A stretch of 64,000 nucleotides of DNA. Origin: an uncultured Colwellia sp. GTDB lineage: Bacteria > Pseudomonadota > Gammaproteobacteria > Enterobacterales > Alteromonadaceae. Below, in pieces: positions 5,649 to 61,982 of the stretch. The position numbers were made by a program, and so were the translations under genes. The notes beneath the pieces are model-generated. The model was not told the DNA's origin. It made no database searches and worked only from the letters and a program-made list of their open reading frames with translations. The stretch covers positions 124,001-188,000 of the forward strand of contig CAJXQI010000003.1 of NCBI GenBank assembly GCA_913058395.1, read 5' to 3'. Within the stretch, counting starts at the first letter, position 1. Each line of letters opens with the position of its first letter.

Positions 5649-6290
5649 TTACACTCTTAAGGCTTCCATATCGGCAATTATTTCTTCGAGTTTTTTAAAT
5701 TCACGGACATAAATTGGTTTCATATCTAGCTGGTAAATGGCACCAGCAAAGTAAGACAATAAAAATGCAATAAACATCACTGCACCGGTAAAAATAATGG
5801 GAACACCAAATAAAACTGGCACATTTGGAAAGTCTATTTGAAAGCCGGCAATAATAGACAAACCAATATTAGAAAAGCCAAGTTGTGCAATACAAGCCAA
5901 AAAAAATGCCGGGTAAACAAACTGGTAAATTTTAGTGTATTGTTGGATCAAGCCTTTTAACCAGGCATCAAATGATTTGATGTATTGGTAGCTGCTGGTA
6001 TTTTTATCCATTCGTTCTAACTCAGCCAATTGCTTTTTGCCAAGCCAGACAAGTGCCAATAACATAGAGGCAATAAACAGCGCTAAAGCGGGCATACCAA
6101 AGGCGCTTAATATGACCAATACTGCGAATGCGCCGATGGCAATAGCAATAATATTCCAGCGAAATGTTCGTTTTAATTTATCAACAATATTTTGCGACTT
6201 TTGGTTATACAAATCATTAATCTTTGGTGCAATTAATGCCTTGTCGTCGATAAAACCTTGTTGCCAAATTGTTTCTATTGATTTAGTCAT
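5649..6290 (-). CDS. membrane protein paired with an ECF sigma factor
   Basis: A 213-residue protein with a charged N-terminal region of about 45 residues and two pairs of hydrophobic segments (about 47-63, 67-85, 124-150 and 160-190), then a charged tail. Its ATG follows directly on the TAA of the sigma-factor gene with no gap, so the two are translationally coupled. By position it could modulate the sigma factor, as anti-sigma proteins do, but no known anti-sigma domain is recognised and this role is inferred from context only. Confidence 0.7.
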   Translation of the reverse strand: MTKSIETIWQQGFIDDKALIAPKINDLYNQKSQNIVDKLKRTFRWNIIAIAIGAFAVLVILSAFGMPALALFIASMLLALVWLGKKQLAELERMDKNTSSYQYIKSFDAWLKGLIQQYTKIYQFVYPAFFLACIAQLGFSNIGLSIIAGFQIDFPNVPVLFGVPIIFTGAVMFIAFLLSYFAGAIYQLDMKPIYVREFKKLEEIIADMEALRV

Positions 6291-6785
6291 TTAATTGCTC
6301 TCCATATTGAGTATCTTATTGAGTCGCTGTTTTATGCGGGTAATACGAACACCGATGTTATTGGCATTTGTTCCGATAATATCGGCAATTTCTAGGTAAC
6401 TTTTCTCTTCCAAATATAACAATATCAATGCTCTGTCAGTTTCCGTTAATTGTCGGATAGCTGCATAGAGTTGATTAATAGATTCATCAGCGAATGTTTT
6501 GCTGTCAGCAACCGCTTCTGCAGGTAAAGTGTCAGACGCAAAATGCTGATAATGACTGCCTTTCTTCTTTTTTAAATATGTTAAACAAACATTTAAAGAA
6601 ATTTTATATATCCAAGTAGACCATTGTGATTTTTCTTGAAAACTGTCGTGGCTGCGCCAAACTTGCAAGCAAACCTCTTGATAGTAATCTTCAAAATCTT
6701 CTTGAGAGTTGGTATACGCTCGACAAATTTTTATAATAATGCCGGCGTATGGCAGTATAAATGCGGTGTAAAAATCACTTCCCAT
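6291..6785 (-). CDS. ECF-family RNA polymerase sigma factor
   Basis: A 164-residue sigma-70-family protein with the two ECF domains. Region 2 includes EDYYQEVCLQVWRSHDSF and WSTWIYKISLNVCLTYLKK (residues about 30-75). Region 4 ends in a helix-turn-helix, LEEKSYLEIADIIGTNANNIGVRITRIKQRL (residues about 125-158). It directly precedes the membrane protein, forming a two-gene operon. The upstream promoter region (6786-6888) is short and T-rich. The inducing signal is unknown. Confidence 0.9.
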   Translation of the reverse strand: MGSDFYTAFILPYAGIIIKICRAYTNSQEDFEDYYQEVCLQVWRSHDSFQEKSQWSTWIYKISLNVCLTYLKKKKGSHYQHFASDTLPAEAVADSKTFADESINQLYAAIRQLTETDRALILLYLEEKSYLEIADIIGTNANNIGVRITRIKQRLNKILNMESN

Positions 6786-9059: not shown

Positions 9060-10082
9060 ATGTCTACTATTAACATTCTTGGAATTGATATAGGAAAATC
9101 TACCTTTCACCTTGTTGGCCATGACTTATCTGGACAAGAGGTTTATCGCAAAAAATTTAGTCGTCCGAAACTAATTCAATTTCTTTCTATTTCAGAGATA
9201 ACAACTATTGCTATGGAAGCTTGTGGTGGCTCTCATTGGTTAGCAAGAAAGTGCCAAGAGTTTGGACATAAAGTACTACTCATACCGCCGCAGTATGTTA
9301 AGCCATATGTCAAAACAAACAAAAATGATTTCATTGATGCTGACGCCATAGCTGAAGCAGCGACTCGCCCAACTATGCGTTTTGTCAGCGTTAAAACTGA
9401 ATCATCTCAAGTGATATCAGTCATTCAACGAATACGCTCAAGCTATCTAAAAGACAGAACGGCATGTATGTCGCGTATCGGATCAATTTTATTAGAGTTT
9501 GGCATGGCTTTTCCAAAATCTCATGCAAAAATGAAAACATTATTCCAATGGCTAGCTGAGCATGGCGAGCCAATACCACCAATGTTGCTTTTAGAATTAA
9601 GAGACCACCATGACTTTTACCTAAAACTTAATCAACTTATTTTAACTCAAGATAAAAAGCTCAAAGAAATTGTGAACAACGATGAACGAGCTCAACTACT
9701 CAAAACGGTCCCTGGAGTGGGAGTTCTAACCGCTAGTCGTTGCTTATCTGATATAAGTAACGTTGCTGATTTCAAAAATGGGAGGCACTTAGCCGCCTGG
9801 ATTGGCTTGGTGCCTCGTCAGTTTACAACGGGAGGAAAGCCTACATTACTAGGTATAAGCAAACGAGGGAATAAAGGCTTACGTGAATTATTCGTTCACG
9901 GTGCAAGAGCTGTTCTTGTTAGGCCTGAAAAAGCTGTAGCTATTTTCGGAAATTGGATATTAGAATTATTATCGAGAAAACCATTTAACGTCGTAGTAGT
10001 CGCTTTAGCGAACAAACTAGCACGTATCGCATGGTCGGTACTTTCAACCAAACAAGCATTCGAAGTTAGAGTGCAAGCCTGA
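9060..10082 (+). CDS. IS110-family transposase (IS1111-type DEDD recombinase)
   Basis: A 340-residue recombinase. The N-terminal RuvC-like DEDD domain shows GIDIGKSTFH (Asp10), AMEACGG (Glu) and NDFIDADAIAEA (Asp pair). The C-terminal transposase domain shows TVPGVGVLTA, AAWIGLVPRQ and GISKRGNKGLRE, whose Ser is the family's conserved catalytic serine. The start at 9060 is chosen because GAGGAG lies seven bases upstream; an in-frame ATG at 9045 lacks such a site. No frameshift or internal stop is present, so the element may be active. Confidence 0.92.
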   Translation: MSTINILGIDIGKSTFHLVGHDLSGQEVYRKKFSRPKLIQFLSISEITTIAMEACGGSHWLARKCQEFGHKVLLIPPQYVKPYVKTNKNDFIDADAIAEAATRPTMRFVSVKTESSQVISVIQRIRSSYLKDRTACMSRIGSILLEFGMAFPKSHAKMKTLFQWLAEHGEPIPPMLLLELRDHHDFYLKLNQLILTQDKKLKEIVNNDERAQLLKTVPGVGVLTASRCLSDISNVADFKNGRHLAAWIGLVPRQFTTGGKPTLLGISKRGNKGLRELFVHGARAVLVRPEKAVAIFGNWILELLSRKPFNVVVVALANKLARIAWSVLSTKQAFEVRVQA

Positions 10083-10298
10083 TTTGCAAATGATGATAAA
10101 GATGACACAACGGTTAGACCACTGGATTGAAGACCTGTGGGGCGGAACAGCAACTTTATAAGTGTGCTTTGGCGCTTTTGAGGACAATCTAGCGCGGATC
10201 TCATCGTGGAGCTGGGGCTAATATATTGGTAACCCAAAAAGACTCCGAATACATTAGCGCAAACCAACTACGTTATCGATATTATTACTTGCAATATT
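10083..10298 (+). ncRNA. candidate bridge (seek) RNA region of the IS1111-type element
   Basis: The 216-base non-coding right end between the transposase stop and the right inverted repeat. In IS110-family elements a structured guide RNA is encoded in a non-coding end, and in the IS1111 subgroup this is the right end. The asymmetry here (short left, long right) fits that. I did not fold it and have not proved its boundaries, so this is inference from family and layout. Confidence 0.45.
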
Positions 10299-10470
10299 GA
10301 GGCGGACCATACATTCGCCCCCAAAGTGAGATATATCTTAAAAATAACTTCTCAATCTATGATTAGTGTAGTGGCCGCTGATGGTTATGCGCTTCAGAGT
10401 TGAATCTGCCAGATAGAAATATATAATTATTCAACGTGGTTAGTAAGAACAAATCTATCACTTTTGCCCA

Positions 10471-12435
10471 TTATTTCAAGTAGGTATATCCATCTAAACA
10501 GTTTTCATAAAAATCAATCCAATTAACGCCTTCACGTGGGTTGATTTTTCCACGCTGAATTTGTTTATCAATTTCTTTTTTTACGATCTGAGCCATAATT
10601 TCAGGCGTGTATTGCATGGTAGATAGTACATTTTTTACAGAAGACCCTTTTACCACTTCTTCTATATAAAAGTCCTTGGGATCATCGTCGTAACTGACAA
10701 TGTGCACTTCATTTAAACGGCCAAATAAATTGTGCATATCCCCCATAACATCTTGATATGCACCCGTTAGGAAAATACCAATATAATAATCTTCACTGTT
10801 TTTTAATGTATGTAATGGGATATGTTGTGCGACAGTATCATCGCCAATAAACTTATCAATTTTTCCATCGCTGTCACAAGTAATGTCAACAAGACTACAC
10901 AGCTTAGTTGGCTTTTCATTTAACCTAGATATAGGCACGATAGGCAATACTTGATCGATAGCCCAAGAGTCTGCTGCTGACTGGAATACTGAAAAATTGG
11001 CGAGATATTGTGATGACAACATTTCAGGGATTTCTTTTAATTCTTCAGGCACAAAGTCTTCATTTTGCAAAAGTTGACCAACCTGATTTAATATTCGCCA
11101 GTAGATAGTTTCTATTTTTGCTAACTCATCAAGGTTTAAAACACTCAACTTAAATGCTTGCATCGCTTGTTCTTTTAGTTGAGTCACATCGTTATAAGAC
11201 TCTTGGAAATTATCAACCGAAAGGTTATCTTCTATTTCACGAATATTGGCGACGATAATATGCTCACCGGTTTCTTTACGCGTATTGTATAACTTCCCAC
11301 TTGGTTGAATTTCGCCGATAATTTTTGTCACTACGCAAGAGTGGTGCGCAGTCATTGCTCTGCCACTTTCACTGACAATATGTGGATGTGGCACAGACTC
11401 TAAATCACAACTTTGTTTAAAGCCGTAAATAATATCAGCAATATATTCTTCTAAATTATAATTACAGGACGAATCATTGGTTGATTGTGAACCGTCATAA
11501 TCAACCGCTAAACCACCACCAACATCAACATATTCAAGTGGTACACCTTGCTTGACCAATTGTGTATAAATGAGTGATGATTCTTGAACGGCTTCTTTAA
11601 TGGCGCGGATATCGGTTAATTGGCTACCAATATGAAAATGTAATAGCTTAATAGTATCCTTTAAACCTTCTTGGTCTAGCAAATCAATCGCGTTAAGAAT
11701 TTCAGCAATGCTTAAGCCAAACTTAGCTCGCTCTCCACTAGAGTTTTCCCATTTTCCACGACCTTTCACCATCATTTTTACGCGCAAGCCTATTAAAGGC
11801 TTAATATCGAGTGATTTTGATAATGAAATTAGACTGGTTAATTCACTAAATTTTTCAATAACAATTATCGTTTTTCGGTTTATTTTTTGTCCTAACAAAG
11901 CCAGTTTTAAATATTCTTCGTCTTTGTAGCCATTTAAAATAGTGAGAGAGTTTTTGTTGGTGTTATAAGCTAACGCGGCAATAAGTTCAGGCTTTGAGCC
12001 TGCTTCTAAGCCGTAATCGAATCGTTTACCGGCACTGACAATTTCTTCAATGACTTCACGCATCTGGTTTACTTTCACCGGAAATACGCCAAAATATCGA
12101 CCTTCGTAATCCGCTTCTTCAATTGTCTTTCTAAACGTTCGGTTTAATCGTTCAACTTGAGATCGTAATATATCGTGAAACCTGATCACGACCGGAAAGT
12201 CGATACCTTCAGCAGCAATCTCATCAACAACTTCTTGCAAATTAATAGATAGATCTGGCTGGTCGTAACGAGGGGTTACTGAAATACTGCCATGCTCACC
12301 GATACCAAAGTAGCCGTCTCCCCATCGATTAACGCGGTAGATATTTTCCGAAGAATCGATGCTCCAATTTTCTGTAGTATCTTTGGTTGCGCTATTGGTC
12401 TTAGTATTGGTAATTGTATTTTGTTGTACTTTCAA
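10471..12435 (-). CDS. speA: biosynthetic arginine decarboxylase
   Basis: A PLP-dependent fold-III decarboxylase that converts L-arginine to agmatine and CO2 in the cytoplasm. It is about 654 residues, close to E. coli SpeA (658). Visible landmarks are the PLP-lysine segment FGVFPVKVNQM, the HIGSQL block, YVDVGGGLAVDYDG and the C-terminal HNLFGRLNE block. There is no in-frame ATG before the conserved NWSID region. I place the start at TTG 12435, two bases after the speB stop and nine bases after GAAGAG. A TTG at 12462 would overlap speB by 25 bases and has no good ribosome site. It follows speB in a two-gene operon. Confidence 0.93.
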   Translation of the reverse strand: MKVQQNTITNTKTNSATKDTTENWSIDSSENIYRVNRWGDGYFGIGEHGSISVTPRYDQPDLSINLQEVVDEIAAEGIDFPVVIRFHDILRSQVERLNRTFRKTIEEADYEGRYFGVFPVKVNQMREVIEEIVSAGKRFDYGLEAGSKPELIAALAYNTNKNSLTILNGYKDEEYLKLALLGQKINRKTIIVIEKFSELTSLISLSKSLDIKPLIGLRVKMMVKGRGKWENSSGERAKFGLSIAEILNAIDLLDQEGLKDTIKLLHFHIGSQLTDIRAIKEAVQESSLIYTQLVKQGVPLEYVDVGGGLAVDYDGSQSTNDSSCNYNLEEYIADIIYGFKQSCDLESVPHPHIVSESGRAMTAHHSCVVTKIIGEIQPSGKLYNTRKETGEHIIVANIREIEDNLSVDNFQESYNDVTQLKEQAMQAFKLSVLNLDELAKIETIYWRILNQVGQLLQNEDFVPEELKEIPEMLSSQYLANFSVFQSAADSWAIDQVLPIVPISRLNEKPTKLCSLVDITCDSDGKIDKFIGDDTVAQHIPLHTLKNSEDYYIGIFLTGAYQDVMGDMHNLFGRLNEVHIVSYDDDPKDFYIEEVVKGSSVKNVLSTMQYTPEIMAQIVKKEIDKQIQRGKINPREGVNWIDFYENCLDGYTYLK

Positions 12436-35369: not shown

Positions 35370-35936
35370 TTGCAGTTACCGTCAATGATCAAAGGCTGGT
35401 ATAACCCCACCACTAGCCCAGAAAAGTTGCTGGCAAACTATATCTCAACTGGCAAAAACAAGTACTTGTCTTTGCTAGTTGAGCAATTTAATTTGTCGAT
35501 TTATCACTATTTATTGAGCCAATCGAATAAAGAGTTAGCTGAAGACGTGGTACAAACAACTTGGTTAAAAGTTATGAAAAGCCATAGTGCTAGCCAACAA
35601 CAAAGTAATGTGAAAAGCTGGTTATTCACCATTGCCCGTAATACTTTAATTGACGAATTTCGCCGTCAACAAAAATGGCAAAGTCAGTTACTAGATGAAA
35701 ATAAAATGCTGACAGTTAATTTGGAAAAGTCACTGCAAGAAGCTGATAGGTTAACGCAGTTCAATGCCGCACTTGGACAATTACCCTTTTTACAACGAGA
35801 AGCGTTTATTTTTCAGCAAGAAGGTTTTTCGTTGAATGAAATTGCCGAATTAACTAACGACAGTTTTGAAACGGTGAAAAGCCGTTTACGTTACGCCCGA
35901 AATAATTTAAGTCATTTGTTAGGAACATCATCATGA
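35370..35936 (+). CDS. ECF-family sigma factor linked to TonB proteins
   Basis: A 188-residue sigma factor. Region 2 contains ELAEDVVQTTWLKVMKS and VKSWLFTIARNTLIDEFRRQ (about 50-100). Region 4 contains LPFLQREAFIFQQEGFSLNEIAELTNDSFETVKSRLRYAR (about 135-180). The start is TTG at 35370 with AGGA seven bases upstream; an ATG at 35385 has no site at proper distance. Its stop overlaps the next start (ATGA), so it is coupled to the TonB-domain protein at 35933. Confidence 0.9.
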   Translation: MQLPSMIKGWYNPTTSPEKLLANYISTGKNKYLSLLVEQFNLSIYHYLLSQSNKELAEDVVQTTWLKVMKSHSASQQQSNVKSWLFTIARNTLIDEFRRQQKWQSQLLDENKMLTVNLEKSLQEADRLTQFNAALGQLPFLQREAFIFQQEGFSLNEIAELTNDSFETVKSRLRYARNNLSHLLGTSS

Positions 35937-42882: not shown

Positions 42883-43413
42883 CTATTTGTTCATCGACTT
42901 TCTAACAAAGTCTTTTAGCTTGTGCTGCGCTCGATTAATGTGTGACTTAACCGTACCTAAAGGAAATTCAGTAACTTGAGTTATTTCAATATGGCTCATG
43001 CCGACACTGGTTGATAACGTGATACAGGTTCGTTCAGGTAAAGAGAGTTGTCGCATCAATTTTTCAATAGTTAAATCTTTATCAATATCGATTTTCTGTA
43101 TTTCAAAGTTATCAAAGTCGTATTCAGCTTGTTCGTGTTTTTTATAAGCTTTTTGCTGTGATTTTAAAAAGTGGTGGTAGGCAATTTTGTGCAACCAAGT
43201 GCTCAACGCAGCGTCTGCACGAAACGAACTTAGTTTTCTATATAAAGTAATAAAGGTTTCTTGGGCTAAATCATCTGCTAGCGCATGATCACCTGCAGTT
43301 AAACGGCGTAGTACTTGCCGAATGCCTGATTGATACTTAGCAACAAGGGTGCGATAAGCATGGTGGTCATTACTGACGATGACTCTGGCAATGAGTTCCT
43401 TGTCATCAATCAT
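42883..43413 (-). CDS. ECF-family sigma factor
   Basis: A 176-residue sigma factor. Region 2: DHALADDLAQETFITLYRKL and STWLHKIAYHHFLKSQQ (about 40-90). Region 4: LSLPERTCITLSTSVGMSHIEITQVTEFPLGTVKSHINRAQHKL (about 125-168). It overlaps the upstream DUF6249 gene by four bases and is followed by a small membrane protein, making a compact three-gene operon. Confidence 0.92.
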   Translation of the reverse strand: MIDDKELIARVIVSNDHHAYRTLVAKYQSGIRQVLRRLTAGDHALADDLAQETFITLYRKLSSFRADAALSTWLHKIAYHHFLKSQQKAYKKHEQAEYDFDNFEIQKIDIDKDLTIEKLMRQLSLPERTCITLSTSVGMSHIEITQVTEFPLGTVKSHINRAQHKLKDFVRKSMNK

Positions 43414-53640: not shown

Positions 53641-55212
53641 TTAATGGCTGTTGTCGGCATCAGCGTGAGCTTCATCATGCAGAGTAATTACCGTAAATTC
53701 GCCATTTTCAATAGCAAAAGTAAAGTCGATTTCCATGCCTGCGCTCAACTGCGCTAAGGCAATATTATTAGCAATATAAAAATCTAAGGTTGCTGCAGGG
53801 CGTTGCCACTTCTCAATTGCTCCGCGACTGATATTGGCGATTCTAGTGTCGTTATCAATACTATTAATAATGCCTGTTACTTGTGCATGGGCAACTGGTT
53901 GGCTAGTGTTCTCCATATCCATATCCATATCCATATCCATATCCATATCCATATCCATATCCATAGCAGACATGCGTTTGAAGTCAGAGGTTTTACTGGA
54001 TTCTGAATCTAAGAGGAATTGTGCTGAAGTTACTATGGTGTCGCTTGCAGATAAGCCTGCAAGGATTTCAATTTGTTTGCCGTCACTACGACCTACATCT
54101 ACTGCGATTGATTTAAACTGACCATCGCCTAATGCTAGTACTACACGGTCTTGAGTACCCGTTCTTATTAAGGCTTCTTTAGGGATAACGATGGTTTCTG
54201 CGCTAGGTTTTCCGTCAATAATCACCTGTGCAAACATGTTCGGCTTCAAGGCGAAATTTTTGTTATCAAAACGCAAACGCACTTTCATAGTACGAGTTTG
54301 GCTGTCGAGAGTAGGGTAAATGTAATCTACTTTGCCTTGCCATGTTTTACCGGGTAAAAAATCCAGTGTCATAGCGACATTATCATCAACAAAAACAAAA
54401 CCTGCTTGGCGTTCTAATACCTCAGCCTCAACCCAAACTTCGGTTAGGTCGCCAATGGAAAATAGCATAGTACCTGGCTGAACATAAAAGCCTTCACGTA
54501 TTGATAAATTTTCAACCACGCCTGATTGTGGGGCGTAGAAGGTTACTTGCTGTTTCACTTTTCGGCTACGTTGTAACTCAGCAATCGCTTCATCAGGAAT
54601 ATTGAGTGCTAATAAACGGTTTTTTGCTGCCTTGATTAAACGCGTATTCTTACGTGAAAGCGCCAGTACAAACTCTTCTTGGGCATTGACCAACTCAGGT
54701 GAATACAATGAATAAATCGCCTGACCTTTTGTTACTGTTTCACCAACCGAATTGATATTGAGGGTTTCAATCCAGCCTTTAACACGTGGGTGAATATGGA
54801 CTAATTTGTCTTGGTTATAATTGACATAACCAACGGTTTTTATTTGTGTTTGTAGGTGCGAATTTTTTACTTTTTCGGTGCGAACGCCAATGTTATTGAC
54901 GATACTTGGGTTGATAGTAACCGTACCCACTTCAGCGTCATTTGCACTGCCATTCTTGTAAACAGGAACAAGCTCCATACCCATAGGAGAAAGACCGGGT
55001 TTATCGCGGCGAAAGTTAGCGTCCATCGGCGCAACCCAATACATAGGCTCAGCTTCATCTGTTGTTACTGCCATTGTATTAGCAGAGTTGCTAGCAGAGT
55101 TATTAGCGAAAAAATTAAAGCTCAACCAACCACCAAATAAGATACTCGGTATTGCGATAATAACGGCACTAGTGATGCGATTGATAAGTGTTTTTTTATT
55201 TGTTGTCATCAT
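53641..55212 (-). CDS. cusB: Cus-type efflux adaptor with C-terminal CusF-like domain
   Basis: A 523-residue periplasmic adaptor. An N-terminal anchor (about 12-32) is followed by a heavy-metal-binding segment (YWVAPMDANFRRDKPGLSPMG), then lipoyl, barrel-sandwich and beta-barrel domains (VGYVNYNQDKLVHIHPRVKG, VTFYAPQSGVVENLSIREG). Around residues 417-433 there is an eightfold Met-Asp repeat. The last 75 residues (GIINSIDNDTRIANISRGAI, then KWQRPAATLDF) look like a CusF domain, but the His and both Met ligands of CusF are replaced. It transfers Cu(I)/Ag(I) to CusA. Confidence 0.92.
   Translation of the reverse strand: MMTTNKKTLINRITSAVIIAIPSILFGGWLSFNFFANNSASNSANTMAVTTDEAEPMYWVAPMDANFRRDKPGLSPMGMELVPVYKNGSANDAEVGTVTINPSIVNNIGVRTEKVKNSHLQTQIKTVGYVNYNQDKLVHIHPRVKGWIETLNINSVGETVTKGQAIYSLYSPELVNAQEEFVLALSRKNTRLIKAAKNRLLALNIPDEAIAELQRSRKVKQQVTFYAPQSGVVENLSIREGFYVQPGTMLFSIGDLTEVWVEAEVLERQAGFVFVDDNVAMTLDFLPGKTWQGKVDYIYPTLDSQTRTMKVRLRFDNKNFALKPNMFAQVIIDGKPSAETIVIPKEALIRTGTQDRVVLALGDGQFKSIAVDVGRSDGKQIEILAGLSASDTIVTSAQFLLDSESSKTSDFKRMSAMDMDMDMDMDMDMDMDMENTSQPVAHAQVTGIINSIDNDTRIANISRGAIEKWQRPAATLDFYIANNIALAQLSAGMEIDFTFAIENGEFTVITLHDEAHADADNSH
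53917..53964 (-). repeat. hexanucleotide microsatellite within cusB
   Basis: Eight exact tandem copies of ATCCAT (plus strand), encoding (Met-Asp)8 on the minus strand. Slippage by whole units would change the length of the Met-Asp tract without breaking the frame. Confidence 0.95.
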
Positions 55213-57420: not shown

Positions 57421-57843
57421 ATGGACATTATGACCGAACAACTGCCCATTTCTATTCAGGTTAGTGATGATTTAGTTGCTCAAATTAATAATATTGCTGC
57501 GATTTGCAATAAGCTTGAAGCACAATTGAATTTTCATACCATGACGGCGAATTGGTATGGAGAAGAAGAAAATATACTGCTGATTAATTTTTTCTTAGTG
57601 TCTGCTTCAGAGTTTGAAAGTAGCGGTAAAGATCAAGAAACCGAGCTTGAAAAAGAATTTTTAGCGGATGATGTACTTTTACTTTCGTCATCAAATAGAC
57701 TGTTGGATTGTTATGTCGCGATCACGGCATCAGAATTATTGCTTTTGAAACAAACACCAAAATTGTTGTCAGGTTATTTGGGCAAAAAATTAACTAAAGT
57801 ATTGAATTTAATTGCTCAACAGCAAGGTTTTGAAAAAATTTAA
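57421..57843 (+). CDS. hypothetical protein
   Basis: A 140-residue cytoplasmic protein, divergent from the Met-rich gene. It has a mixed helix/strand pattern with an acidic central part (SSGKDQETELEKEFLADD) and no signal peptide, membrane segment or recognised motif. ATG at 57421 is preferred (AAAGG ten bases upstream); a GTG at 57391 in the same frame is possible. Function unknown. Confidence 0.6.
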   Translation: MDIMTEQLPISIQVSDDLVAQINNIAAICNKLEAQLNFHTMTANWYGEEENILLINFFLVSASEFESSGKDQETELEKEFLADDVLLLSSSNRLLDCYVAITASELLLLKQTPKLLSGYLGKKLTKVLNLIAQQQGFEKI

Positions 57844-57950
57844 TTGCTTTGTTCTCGCTCGTAGGTCAATAAATACGGTGTTTATAACGTTTTTTTATTT
57901 TAATTCTAATTAATTTTAAATTAAATTGAACTAACAACTACGAAGATCGT

Positions 57951-58044
57951 CTTACTTAGTAAGAGATTCTCCCTCGGTTTTTGTTTTTATTAAATTGCAT
58001 TTTATTTATGTTATACGCTCCTCACTTGAGGGGCGTTTTTTTTT
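57951..58044 (+). ncRNA. putative small RNA, tandem copy 1
   Basis: About 90 bases ending in a terminator and strongly similar to the unit at 58127-58215. The shared order is TTGAAC 29 bases upstream, a TTA(G/A)TAAGAGATTCTCCC block, CTCGG, a U-rich middle, then GTTATACGCTCCTCA and the terminator. There is no open reading frame. A U-rich body with a strong terminator fits an Hfq-type sRNA (inference). The exact 5' end is not known. Confidence 0.6.
58016..58044 (+). terminator. rho-independent terminator of sRNA copy 1
   Basis: Stem CGCTCCTC / GAGGGGCG (8 bp with one G-U pair), loop ACTT, followed by nine T. Confidence 0.9.
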
Positions 58045-58126
58045 GCCGGTAAAATGCTACTAGTTACTGCTGAAATTTTTTTGTTTTTTTTCGAAACTAA
58101 TTTGAACTTATCGTAAATTTGATGCT

Positions 58127-58215
58127 CTGACTTAATAAGAGATTCTCCCCCTCGGTTTTGTTTTTAATGTTTTTATGTATTGTTATACGCTCCTCAAATG
58201 AGGGGCGTTTTTTTT
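58127..58215 (+). ncRNA. putative small RNA, tandem copy 2
   Basis: Second copy of the unit at 57951, starting 176 bases later. AAGAGATTCTCCCC, CTCGGTTTTGTTTTTA, GTTATACGCTCCTCA and the terminator are kept, while the middle and the loop differ. TTGAAC again lies exactly 29 bases before AAGAGATT. Conservation of upstream word, 5' block and terminator, with drift elsewhere, is what selection on an RNA would give. It ends 137 bases before the CapA gene. Confidence 0.6.
58188..58215 (+). terminator. rho-independent terminator of sRNA copy 2
   Basis: Stem CGCTCCTC / GAGGGGCG, loop AAAT, followed by eight T. It differs from copy 1 only in the loop. Confidence 0.9.
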
Positions 58216-58352: not shown

Positions 58353-60419
58353 ATGTTACGTATATTGTCGATATTATCTATCACGCTTTTAATGAGTTTT
58401 ACCACGGTTTCGGCCGATTTAATTACGCTGACAGGCAAGATTATTAGCGAGGATGGTAAGGCTATCTCTGGCGTTAAAGTTAAGCTGAGTGGAAAAAACG
58501 TACTTACTGATAAACAAGGTATCTATCAGTTATCGACGGCCGTTGAAGATACTTATCAACTTAGCTTACATAAACCCGATTACTTTTCTGCTATTCAAAC
58601 ATTCAGCCACTATGAATTGAAACAAAACTCATCGACTATTGCCGATATTACCTTAGTTAAAAAAGCGCAAAAGCGCGTGATGTTAGCCTTTGCGGGTGAC
58701 GTTATGATGGGACGTCGCTTCTATAAGCCTTACTTTGGTGATGAAGTACTTATTCATCGAGATAATAAACTTAGCGATAGCAAAGCTATTGTTCAACATA
58801 TTAAACCTTATATGAGCTTGGCTGATTACGCCGCGGTTAATTTAGAAACTCAGATTGCCGATAAGAAACCTGCTGAGCGAGCGCCAAAATCTGTGACCTT
58901 TTATTCTGAGCCTGAAATATTAGACGCACTTACGTGGGCGGGAGTGGATTATGTTTCATTGGGAAATAACCATACCTATGACTACATGGATTCTGGCTTG
59001 CATTCGACGTTAGCGTTTTTGAATAAAAGTGAATTAGGTTATTCTGGGGCAGGTGTTGATGAAAAGTCAGCACTGAAAGCACACACGGCAACAGTCAATA
59101 ATACTGAATTTTCTATGCTTGGTTATGTTGGCTGGGAAGGTAGCGCTAACCCAACGCAAACCGCGAATCATCAACATGGTGGTGCCGCTTACGGTTCAAT
59201 GGAAAACATCTTGCAATCAGTTTCTAAGCAAGTGGCTGACGATAAAGTTACTATCGTGCAATATCACGGCAGTCAAGAATATGCCAACAACCCAACAGGT
59301 GTTACGGAGCAACGTTTAAAGTCTTCATTAGATGCTGGTGCTGCGTTAGCCATTGCTCATCATCCCCATGTAACGCAAGGTTTAGAGCTATATAACAATA
59401 AACTGATTGCCTATTCAATGGGTAACTTCATTTTTGACCAAAACTTCAGCGCAACTCAACACAGTTTTATTCTTTATGTTTGGCTTGATGAAGGGAAGTT
59501 TCATCGCGCAGAAATAGTACCGTTATATGTTAAAGGCTATAAACCAACGCCAGCAACAGGTATGCATCGCTATACCGTAATGAAACGATTAACGGAGCTT
59601 TCAAAACAGCGAAATACTACTATTTCAATGTCAGGTGGCCATGGTGTTATTCAGTCAAATAATCAGCAGTCTGCAGAGCAAGAACAGCCGACGAATAAAA
59701 TGCAGCTTGCTATTGATATCGCTAGCAATGAAAGAACTACCCCACTTTATCAATTGCCGTGGAACCGCAGCATTACTCAAGTGCAAATGCCGAACTCAAA
59801 TACTGCGTACCGTTTAGGGACAAATTTAATTAACGGTAGTGATTTTGAAAGCTTCGCATTATTCGATAGCCCAGAACGTGGTTGGTTATTTGATCGCAGT
59901 GCAACGACATTGAATAACTTTGGCGCTAGTGGCAGCCATAGTTTAGCAATAACCGTTGATGCTCAATCGCCAACTACCTTTGGTATGCAAAGCTTTAGAC
60001 GAGTTTACAAAGCTAGTAGTGCCATGACCATTAAAGCTAAATTCAAGGTGCAATCACCGGTAAAAATTAACTTTTACTGGCAAGGGCGAAAGAAACGTCA
60101 GAAGCTATTTGATGCCTTTAAAAATAGCCCTAAACAGCTAATTGATACGGTAGAGCTTTCAGCCAGTAATGCTTGGCAAAATGTTGAGGTTGATTTTAAT
60201 TCGCCGCGTATTGGTTATAAAAGTTATCGCGTACTGGCAGAAATTGAATTACAAAATGGCGCAACGTCGCAAGTTAATATTGATGACTTTGCCTTAATTG
60301 AATGGCAAAGCGCTTTTAGTAAGAACCCTAAACCTAATTTTTATAACACCTTAAGTTACCAAGCAGCGTATCTTGGTGTCGATAAGGCTGTTTCTTCGCC
60401 TGTTGTTGTAAAATTTTAA
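58353..60419 (+). CDS. CapA-family metallophosphatase-like protein with carboxypeptidase-regulatory-like domain
   Basis: A 688-residue exported protein. Signal peptide at about 1-21; a beta-sandwich domain like the carboxypeptidase regulatory domain at about 25-95 (TGKIISEDGKAISGVKVKLSG); then a PGA_cap/CapA domain at about 108-380 with AFAGDVMMGR, NLETQIADK, LGNNHTYDYMDSG, VQYHGSQEY and AIAHHPHVTQG, the calcineurin-like metal site pattern. A C-terminal beta-rich module (about 490-665) resembles a carbohydrate-binding domain. CapA relatives act in poly-gamma-glutamate capsule systems, but no capB/capC is nearby, so the role is open. Confidence 0.83.
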   Translation: MLRILSILSITLLMSFTTVSADLITLTGKIISEDGKAISGVKVKLSGKNVLTDKQGIYQLSTAVEDTYQLSLHKPDYFSAIQTFSHYELKQNSSTIADITLVKKAQKRVMLAFAGDVMMGRRFYKPYFGDEVLIHRDNKLSDSKAIVQHIKPYMSLADYAAVNLETQIADKKPAERAPKSVTFYSEPEILDALTWAGVDYVSLGNNHTYDYMDSGLHSTLAFLNKSELGYSGAGVDEKSALKAHTATVNNTEFSMLGYVGWEGSANPTQTANHQHGGAAYGSMENILQSVSKQVADDKVTIVQYHGSQEYANNPTGVTEQRLKSSLDAGAALAIAHHPHVTQGLELYNNKLIAYSMGNFIFDQNFSATQHSFILYVWLDEGKFHRAEIVPLYVKGYKPTPATGMHRYTVMKRLTELSKQRNTTISMSGGHGVIQSNNQQSAEQEQPTNKMQLAIDIASNERTTPLYQLPWNRSITQVQMPNSNTAYRLGTNLINGSDFESFALFDSPERGWLFDRSATTLNNFGASGSHSLAITVDAQSPTTFGMQSFRRVYKASSAMTIKAKFKVQSPVKINFYWQGRKKRQKLFDAFKNSPKQLIDTVELSASNAWQNVEVDFNSPRIGYKSYRVLAEIELQNGATSQVNIDDFALIEWQSAFSKNPKPNFYNTLSYQAAYLGVDKAVSSPVVVKF

Positions 60420-61250: not shown

Positions 61251-61982
61251 ATGAAATTTAAAATTCTACTAGCTATATTGATCACGTCAGTAACATTTGT
61301 TAGCTCAACAGTAAGTGCGAGCCTTATTCTTGGAACTGGTACGCAAGCATTAATAGGTGGTGATTTAACTGATCCAGAAAATGATGGCTTAATTGATGAA
61401 AACACAAATTATAATGCAATATTTAACGCTAACAGCGAACCAGGTTTCGGTGGTGGAGAATATTCATTTAACGTTTTCGATAATGTTTTAACCGGCGGAA
61501 ATGGCAAGTGGTGTTGTGAAGCTACAGGTGGTGACGCCAAAGATTTAAGCGATGCAAATTTATCGGGGTTATGGGTTGAAGCTAGTTTTGGTGCTTCTCA
61601 ATATATTTTAGATTCATTTACACTTTCTTCTGCTAATGATGTACCTGGAAGAGATGCAGACCAATGGCGTATTCTTGGTTCAAATGATGGTGTAAATTAC
61701 ACCTCGATATTTACCTATGATAACGATGGTCAATCTATTTGGAATCAACGTTTTCAAGTAGTTCAATTCTCAAGTGGTGTTGACTATAGTATACCTGAAG
61801 CTTATAGCACTTTTCGTTACGAAGCATATTCAACGGTTAGCGATGGTTACCACCAGTTAGGTGAAATTGAGTTTTTTGGTACTGCAGCTTCAGTAGCAGC
61901 CCAAGTACCAGAGCCTACAACCTTAGCAATTTTCTCATTGGCACTTATTGCTTTTGGCGCACGTCGTTTTAAACAGCAATAA
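61251..61982 (+). CDS. PEP-CTERM surface protein with discoidin-like domain
   Basis: A 243-residue exported protein: signal peptide (about 1-24), a beta-rich domain with a discoidin (F5/8 type C)-like pattern (DQWRILGSNDGVNYTSIFTY, then HQLGEIEFFG), and a C-terminal PEP-CTERM signal, VPEPTTLAIFSLALIAFGARR, made of the PEP motif, a membrane helix and an Arg-rich end. Such proteins are sorted by exosortase, often with exopolysaccharide production; no exosortase is in this window. Likely role in surface or biofilm matrix. Confidence 0.9.
   Translation: MKFKILLAILITSVTFVSSTVSASLILGTGTQALIGGDLTDPENDGLIDENTNYNAIFNANSEPGFGGGEYSFNVFDNVLTGGNGKWCCEATGGDAKDLSDANLSGLWVEASFGASQYILDSFTLSSANDVPGRDADQWRILGSNDGVNYTSIFTYDNDGQSIWNQRFQVVQFSSGVDYSIPEAYSTFRYEAYSTVSDGYHQLGEIEFFGTAASVAAQVPEPTTLAIFSLALIAFGARRFKQQ

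Follow-up and report, generated by a model that had tools for sequence, protein, structure and literature searches.

Two tandem units in the 64,000-nucleotide stretch of Colwellia sp. DNA analysed here (the window) are best explained as sigmaE-driven, trans-acting sRNAs that would use a C-rich 5' block to pair with the ribosome-binding sites of OMP mRNAs, those of TonB-dependent receptors being the likeliest; we put the probability of this reading at about 0.72. Judged from their sequence, the units are real and conserved sRNA genes with predicted transcripts, very probably driven by sigmaE, and it is likely that they repress OMPs. The features concerned are as follows.

57424..57843, + strand: upstream neighbour, gene for a 139-aa protein without Pfam match, kept upstream of the array in 16/17 homologous regions
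57926..57960, + strand: sigmaE-type promoter of unit 1 (-35 GAACTA 57928-57933, -10 TCTTA 57950-57954, 6 nt to the predicted +1)
57961..58044, + strand: sRNA unit 1, predicted transcript of ~84 nt (sequence, fold, and model R1 at 114.7 bits, unit 1 itself being in R1)
57961..57977, + strand: 5' block of unit 1, AAGAGATTCTCCCTCGG, proposed seed (conserved in the alignment of units)
58015..58044, + strand: intrinsic terminator of unit 1, stem-loop 58015-58036, then T-tract (fold, covariation)
58102..58136, + strand: sigmaE-type promoter of unit 2 (-35 GAACTT 58104-58109, -10 TCTGA 58126-58130, 6 nt to the predicted +1)
58137..58215, + strand: sRNA unit 2, predicted transcript of ~79 nt (sequence, fold, and R1 at 119.5 bits, unit 2 itself being in R1)
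58137..58155, + strand: 5' block of unit 2, AAGAGATTCTCCCCCTCGG, proposed seed (conserved in the alignment of units)
58187..58215, + strand: intrinsic terminator of unit 2, stem-loop 58187-58208, then T-tract (fold, covariation)
58353..60419, + strand: capA-like gene (PGA_cap), a homologue of which follows the array in 5/17 homologous regions

The first-pass annotation had described a tandem pair of U-rich putative sRNAs between a hypothetical gene and a capA-like gene; the array indeed lies between the 139-aa gene and capA, and the predicted units each have their own promoter and terminator and a conserved 5' block. As had been stated, TTGAAC (57926-57931 and 58102-58107) stands exactly 29 bases ahead of AAGAGATT (57961 and 58137) in both units, and the start-to-start distance is 176. 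Both units start with AAGAGATTCTCCC, in agreement with the shared 5' block noticed earlier, and this 13-base word occurs in the whole genome at these two places only. The terminators, which had been called strong, each consist of a 9-bp hairpin (8 bp plus a closing A-U, with one G-U pair) followed by T9 in unit 1 and T8 in unit 2, and the fold z-scores against shuffles were -2.9 and -2.6 for the two terminators/units. A repeat search aligned the units at 77% identity over 61 nt and at 75% over 44 nt. The bodies of both are U-rich, and the C-rich 5' block is mostly unpaired in the predicted centroid folds.

We searched 60 genomes with the 331-bp region at the DNA level and obtained matches in all 16 other genomes of the same genus (Cognaticolwellia/Colwellia where named; E from 7e-16 to 9e-97); the remaining 43 genomes gave no match better than E 3.5e-4. 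This conservation across all 16 genomes excludes a chance origin of the units. The homologous locus holds 1-5 units per genome (17 genomes). A script extracted 44 units, comprising 41 at the window-type locus in 17 genomes (one of the three from G008 lies on another contig, L071) and 3 at a second locus of G015, whose fourth unit was left out by the terminator filter. Among the 41 same-locus units, the mean majority identity was 0.99 for TTGAACT, 0.57 for the 16-nt promoter spacer, 0.93 for the -10 box, 0.98 for AAGAGATT, 0.91 for the CU block after it, 0.78 for the body and 0.93 for the terminator. The promoter boxes and the 5' block hardly vary, and the spacer drifts; a random 5' block, which had been named as counting against the sRNA reading, was looked for, and the block was found to be conserved in the 41 units. 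An alignment with homologues and a covariation test had also been proposed, and the terminator stem was found to covary: over the 44 units, 98.7% of the cells of the helix were paired and 5 of the 9 pairs had changed on both sides, values of which neither was attained in any of 500 shuffles. The nearest relative of a unit was in another genome for 31/42 units and was a sibling in the same genome for 11/42, so that old pairs and recent duplications both exist.

The only homologous region without the 139-aa gene upstream is L071, at a contig end, and a search with this protein matched 11 named contigs, all from Cognaticolwellia or Colwellia. Between the two sRNA units of G002 sits a gene (L064, 6507-7238) homologous to the PEP-CTERM gene at 61251 of the window, which indicates that the neighbourhood rearranges around the array. 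Elsewhere in the window, positions 53641-55212 (- strand) encode, as judged by eye, an efflux periplasmic adaptor-like protein with a Met-Asp repeat (MDMDMD) that possibly binds metal.

On sequence criteria, TTGAAC is part of a sigmaE-type promoter, which the first-pass annotation had not recognised; it had likewise missed how large the family is and how it is tied to the gshA/micA position. The consensus promoter of the homologous units is GAACT(A/T)-N16-TCN(T/G)A-N6-start. From the start of GAACT to the 5' block there are 33 nt in 43 of the 44 extracted units and 32 nt in the remaining one, where the extraction permitted 31-35 nt; TGAAC was also found at the same place in a search that required just the 5' block and the terminator and did not ask for a promoter. 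One gene of the same genome exceeds the RpoE cut-off (TIGR02939, 331.7 bits; the next ECF match has 92.3), and it is preceded by CGAACTT-N16-TCCTA-CTTTAT, with the same boxes and spacing as in the sRNA units; such a site is expected there, since rpoE is autoregulated. The E. coli micA promoter, GAACTC-N16-TCTGA, has its +1 at the same distance as the sRNA units. When up to two mismatches were allowed, the promoter pattern was found twice in the window (both exact) against 0.99 expected, a count that is not significant (2 were reached in 25 of 100 shuffles), and the promoter claim therefore rests on conservation. A scan of the genus for the exact TGAACTT pattern found two known units, missed rpoE and was set aside as too narrow for mapping the regulon. 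The window contains three further ECF-sigma-like matches, at 6309-6764 (-), 35424-35915 (+) and 42904-43404 (-).

A covariance model (R1) was then built from the 44 units with promoter and run on 147 genomes of the taxonomic family, which represent 52 genera; at E<=0.01 per genome it matched 51 genomes from 21 genera, 6 of the 51 belonging to the window's own genus. Forty regions with R1 matches (7 in the genus, 33 outside) were chosen for closer study; at E<=0.05 they yielded 121 matches, with up to 10 per array, and the weakest of the matches are doubtful. We distinguished three subtypes by eye: A (the window type), B (GAGAGACTTTATTTCCCTTAGTGTTTCATG) and C (a GAAAGC-AAAACCTCCCTGGACT-GCTTTC stem with CCUCCCUGG in the loop). 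An alignment of 126 rows, which was fitted to the model and is hence biased towards the structure, had 97.0% of the cells of the terminator helix paired and 9/9 pairs changed on both sides; the corresponding counts for 500 shuffles were 0/500 for four measures and 15/500 for the number of two-sided pairs. Related units are also present at unrelated loci; for example, the window's own genome carries extra B units near a peroxidase gene (PF00141) on C7 and, on C17, one B and one C unit flanked by gshA (PF04262) and an SLT_4 lipoprotein. A second model (R2, 126 units), run across the order, matched 25 genomes out of 295; of these, 16 lie outside the family, and their matches are weak (best E 1.1e-4, with about 3 expected by chance in 295 genomes). 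No earlier description of such arrays was among the matches listed in our literature searches, whose coverage of subscription journals was limited, and this widespread family of sRNA arrays is apparently undescribed.

Several individual loci are recorded here as observations. At L162 (G000:C7), B units at 6206-6312 and 9224-9328 lie beside a LysR regulator and a signal-peptide peroxidase gene (PF00141, KatG-like; 9443-11698), directly ahead of whose start is GGGGAATAAC, a pairing partner of the B3 unit on C17; peroxidase-like frames near B units were also seen by eye in L164, L165, L166 and L201. The second G015 locus (L080, G015:C26, 5036-5611) has four tandem subtype-B units with a diverged 5' block and the same promoter layout. 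The largest array among the 40 fetched regions is that of L182 (G100:C12, 4152-7891), with ten matches. The B units of L180, L187 and L188, in genomes of 7.5-7.9 Mb, adjoin what appears by eye to be a phage-tail-type gene cluster.

The gshA gene was found in 24 of the 40 regions by a motif search (Pfam-checked for two); 23 of these are among the 33 regions outside the genus, and one region of the present genome (L163) is among the 24. In all 24, the array is on the strand opposite gshA; its distance to the 3' end of gshA is 21-203 nt, with L181 as the exception (1007 nt; gene call broken by Ns). A lipoprotein motif is present in 21/24 of these regions and a C unit in 18/24, the C unit being the gshA-proximal copy in 18/18. 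The gene order in E. coli K-12 is luxS(-), micA(+), gshA(-), and R2 matches E. coli micA in register (27.9 bits) and places the +1 at position 2303, where micA is annotated to start. R2 also matches E. coli rybB at 24.9 bits, micA and rybB both being sigmaE-dependent, and gave no match on E. coli omrA/omrB. Since rybB is matched too, R2 recognises the sigmaE-sRNA layout and does not prove micA descent; the case for such descent rests on position, and it is not proven. Tentatively, a micA-like ancestor at gshA might have been amplified to tandem sigmaE-sRNA arrays in the family that contains Colwellia and might then have seeded new loci (that with the katG-like neighbour, and the window), while the C-rich seeds diverged; the arrays would be copy-number-tunable envelope-stress repressors for dozens of TonB-dependent receptors, with the window pair as a genus-specific branch. 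We regard this history as possible.

We compared the pairing of the sRNA 5' parts with 28 TonB-receptor and 164 other start regions of the window's own genome, with correction for SD strength and GC. The corrected P values were 0.033 and 0.012 for the window units (A1 and A2), 0.014, 0.0006 and 0.13 for B1, B2 and B3, and 0.06 for C1, the results for B3 and C1 thus lacking significance; the uncorrected values were 0.094 (A1), 0.053 (A2), 0.032 (B1), 0.011 (B2), 0.23 (B3) and 0.41 (C1). When 25 shuffled seeds were tried for each unit, none was as low for A1, A2, B2 and C1, and at least one was as low for B1 and B3. In an SD-matched subset (19 receptors vs 115), the values were 0.11 for both A1 and A2, 0.004 to 0.02 for the B units and 0.27 for C. 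A second genome, G009 (25 receptors vs 176 others), gave P values of 0.014 (A1), 0.0066 (A2) and 0.0039 (B); in the cases of A1 and B, one or more of the 25 shuffles did as well as the real seed. PF00593 matches numbered 33 and 45 in the two genomes searched. Because the start sites were assigned by a simple script, the receptors were picked from the PF00593 loci according to the length of their reading frames and the tests depend on one another, these comparisons, whose statistical support is modest, are only suggestive of preferential pairing of the sRNA 5' parts with TonB-receptor start regions in the two genomes. Among individual sites, the C seed CUCCCUGGAU has a 10-base match that covers the SD of receptor L223; CCAGGGAG is found again ahead of L279 (G009), whose N-terminus resembles that of L223. 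AUUCUCCCU of unit 1 has a 9-base match over the SD of the TonB receptor L228, which itself has matches at E<=1e-100 in just 3/17 genomes, its own included. Unit 2 pairs most strongly, over 12 nt, with the PEP-CTERM gene at 61251, a candidate that was rejected because the site is missing in the homologue inside the G002 array. A duplex ranking over whole RNAs was dropped, as A/U-rich pairing dominated it.

In E. coli, envelope damage frees sigmaE, and by analogy the same may happen in the present host. SigmaE would then transcribe both units from their predicted GAACTw-N16-TCTKA promoters, and each RNA would stop at its own terminator, with the U-tract and the U-rich body probably binding Hfq. 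The C-rich 5' block might next pair with the G-rich SD regions of OMP mRNAs, mainly those of TonB-dependent receptors, and so block translation, a step for which the statistical support is modest. Given that arrays have 1-5 copies at the window-type locus and up to 10 elsewhere, we infer that copy number may set the dose and that separate copies may drift to different seeds.

The units might also be real sRNAs that are driven by a different ECF sigma factor, or whose targets lie elsewhere, such as among secreted proteins at large. Several ECF sigma genes exist in the genome, where 14 regions match the ECF sigma model (RpoE and 13 weaker ones), so that another ECF factor could use the promoter; moreover, the pairing statistics are modest, and shuffled seeds sometimes equal the real ones. 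However, the boxes and their spacing are the same at the genome's own rpoE and at E. coli micA, and the relatives share the gshA synteny, and we consider this alternative unlikely. Control of the downstream capA-like gene through premature termination, with the units as cis-acting leaders or attenuators, is quite improbable. It would fit units that lie immediately ahead of capA in the same orientation and end in terminators, but a capA homologue is absent within the fetched ~12 kb in 12/17 homologous regions with the array still there, each unit has its own predicted promoter, and related units occur away from this locus.

A tandem sRNA trio is known in Alteromonas (PMC5864184), and the units might by the same token be Csr-type sponges that sequester CsrA, like Aln1a-c. 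Multiple GGA motifs, as looked for in a sponge, are nevertheless rare: any GGA occurs in 5/44 units and in 22/121 wider-family matches (two or more in 2/121), whereas CCC lies within the first 30 nt of 44/44 units and of 109/121 matches, which makes a sponge very improbable. Mobile or structural repeats (REP/MITE-like) with no regulatory role would account for hairpin-bearing repeats of variable copy number (1-5), some of them recent local duplicates (11/42), but not for the same upstream neighbour in 16/17 regions or for a promoter and 5' block that are conserved while the spacer drifts; this explanation is extremely unlikely.

The best-known sigmaE-dependent sRNAs are encoded by single genes of enterobacteria and vibrios. 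If the units are indeed sigmaE-driven repressors of OMPs, the arrays would extend the sigmaE-sRNA circuit to a marine group and would provide Rfam with a new family. With 1 to 10 copies and varied seeds, they would serve as natural replicates for the question of why sibling sRNAs persist, and would let seed evolution be studied against a large receptor repertoire.

An Rfam covariance search, which had been proposed as a check, assigned no named family to the window units: at gathering scores there was no match in the window or in 10 array loci, and at E<=10 the window and L177 gave sub-threshold matches only. MicA represses ompA via Hfq-assisted pairing. The units resemble MicA (RF00078) in the identical -35/-10/+1 spacing of a sigmaE promoter, in a length of ~70-80 nt with a terminator and CCCU within the 5' half, and, in 24/40 related regions, in the placement of the array at the gshA 3' end on the opposite strand. 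However, the RNA body aligns poorly with micA, the arrays are tandem and multicopy, an SLT_4 lipoprotein takes the place of the luxS neighbour at gshA arrays, and the window array sits between the 139-aa gene and capA. The Rfam MicA model likewise gave no match at gathering score in the window or the 10 array loci, and the control, E. coli micA (L257), scored 83.9 bits. A review (PMC4618604) reports MicA in Enterobacteriaceae and, as a partial match, once in Lactobacillus. RybB (RF00110) shares the sigmaE promoter, a similar length and the R2 match of 24.9 bits, but has another seed and locus, and the window units lack an Rfam match to it. One R2 match in a genome of the same order is a JA04 (RF02732) member (91.1 bits) with a GAACTT promoter; JA04 also gave unit 1 its top sub-threshold bit score, 25.9 against a cut-off of 81, which is at chance level (E 0.13). 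LhrC1-5 of Listeria have a C-rich pairing motif. As described in PMC4132741, they are multicopy sibling sRNAs induced by cell-envelope stress. They differ in being LisRK-controlled and in coming from a Gram-positive bacterium. Aln1a-c of Alteromonas, three highly expressed tandem sRNAs within 404 bp, likewise come from a marine gammaproteobacterium (PMC5864184), but they are CsrA sponges in which A(N)GGA abounds, and the window family seldom has this motif. Finally, the published sigmaE-sRNA promoter of Rna01 from Actinobacillus pleuropneumoniae, as given in PMC9577009, is GAACTT-16-TCTTA with 6 bp to the start, the same layout as in the window units.
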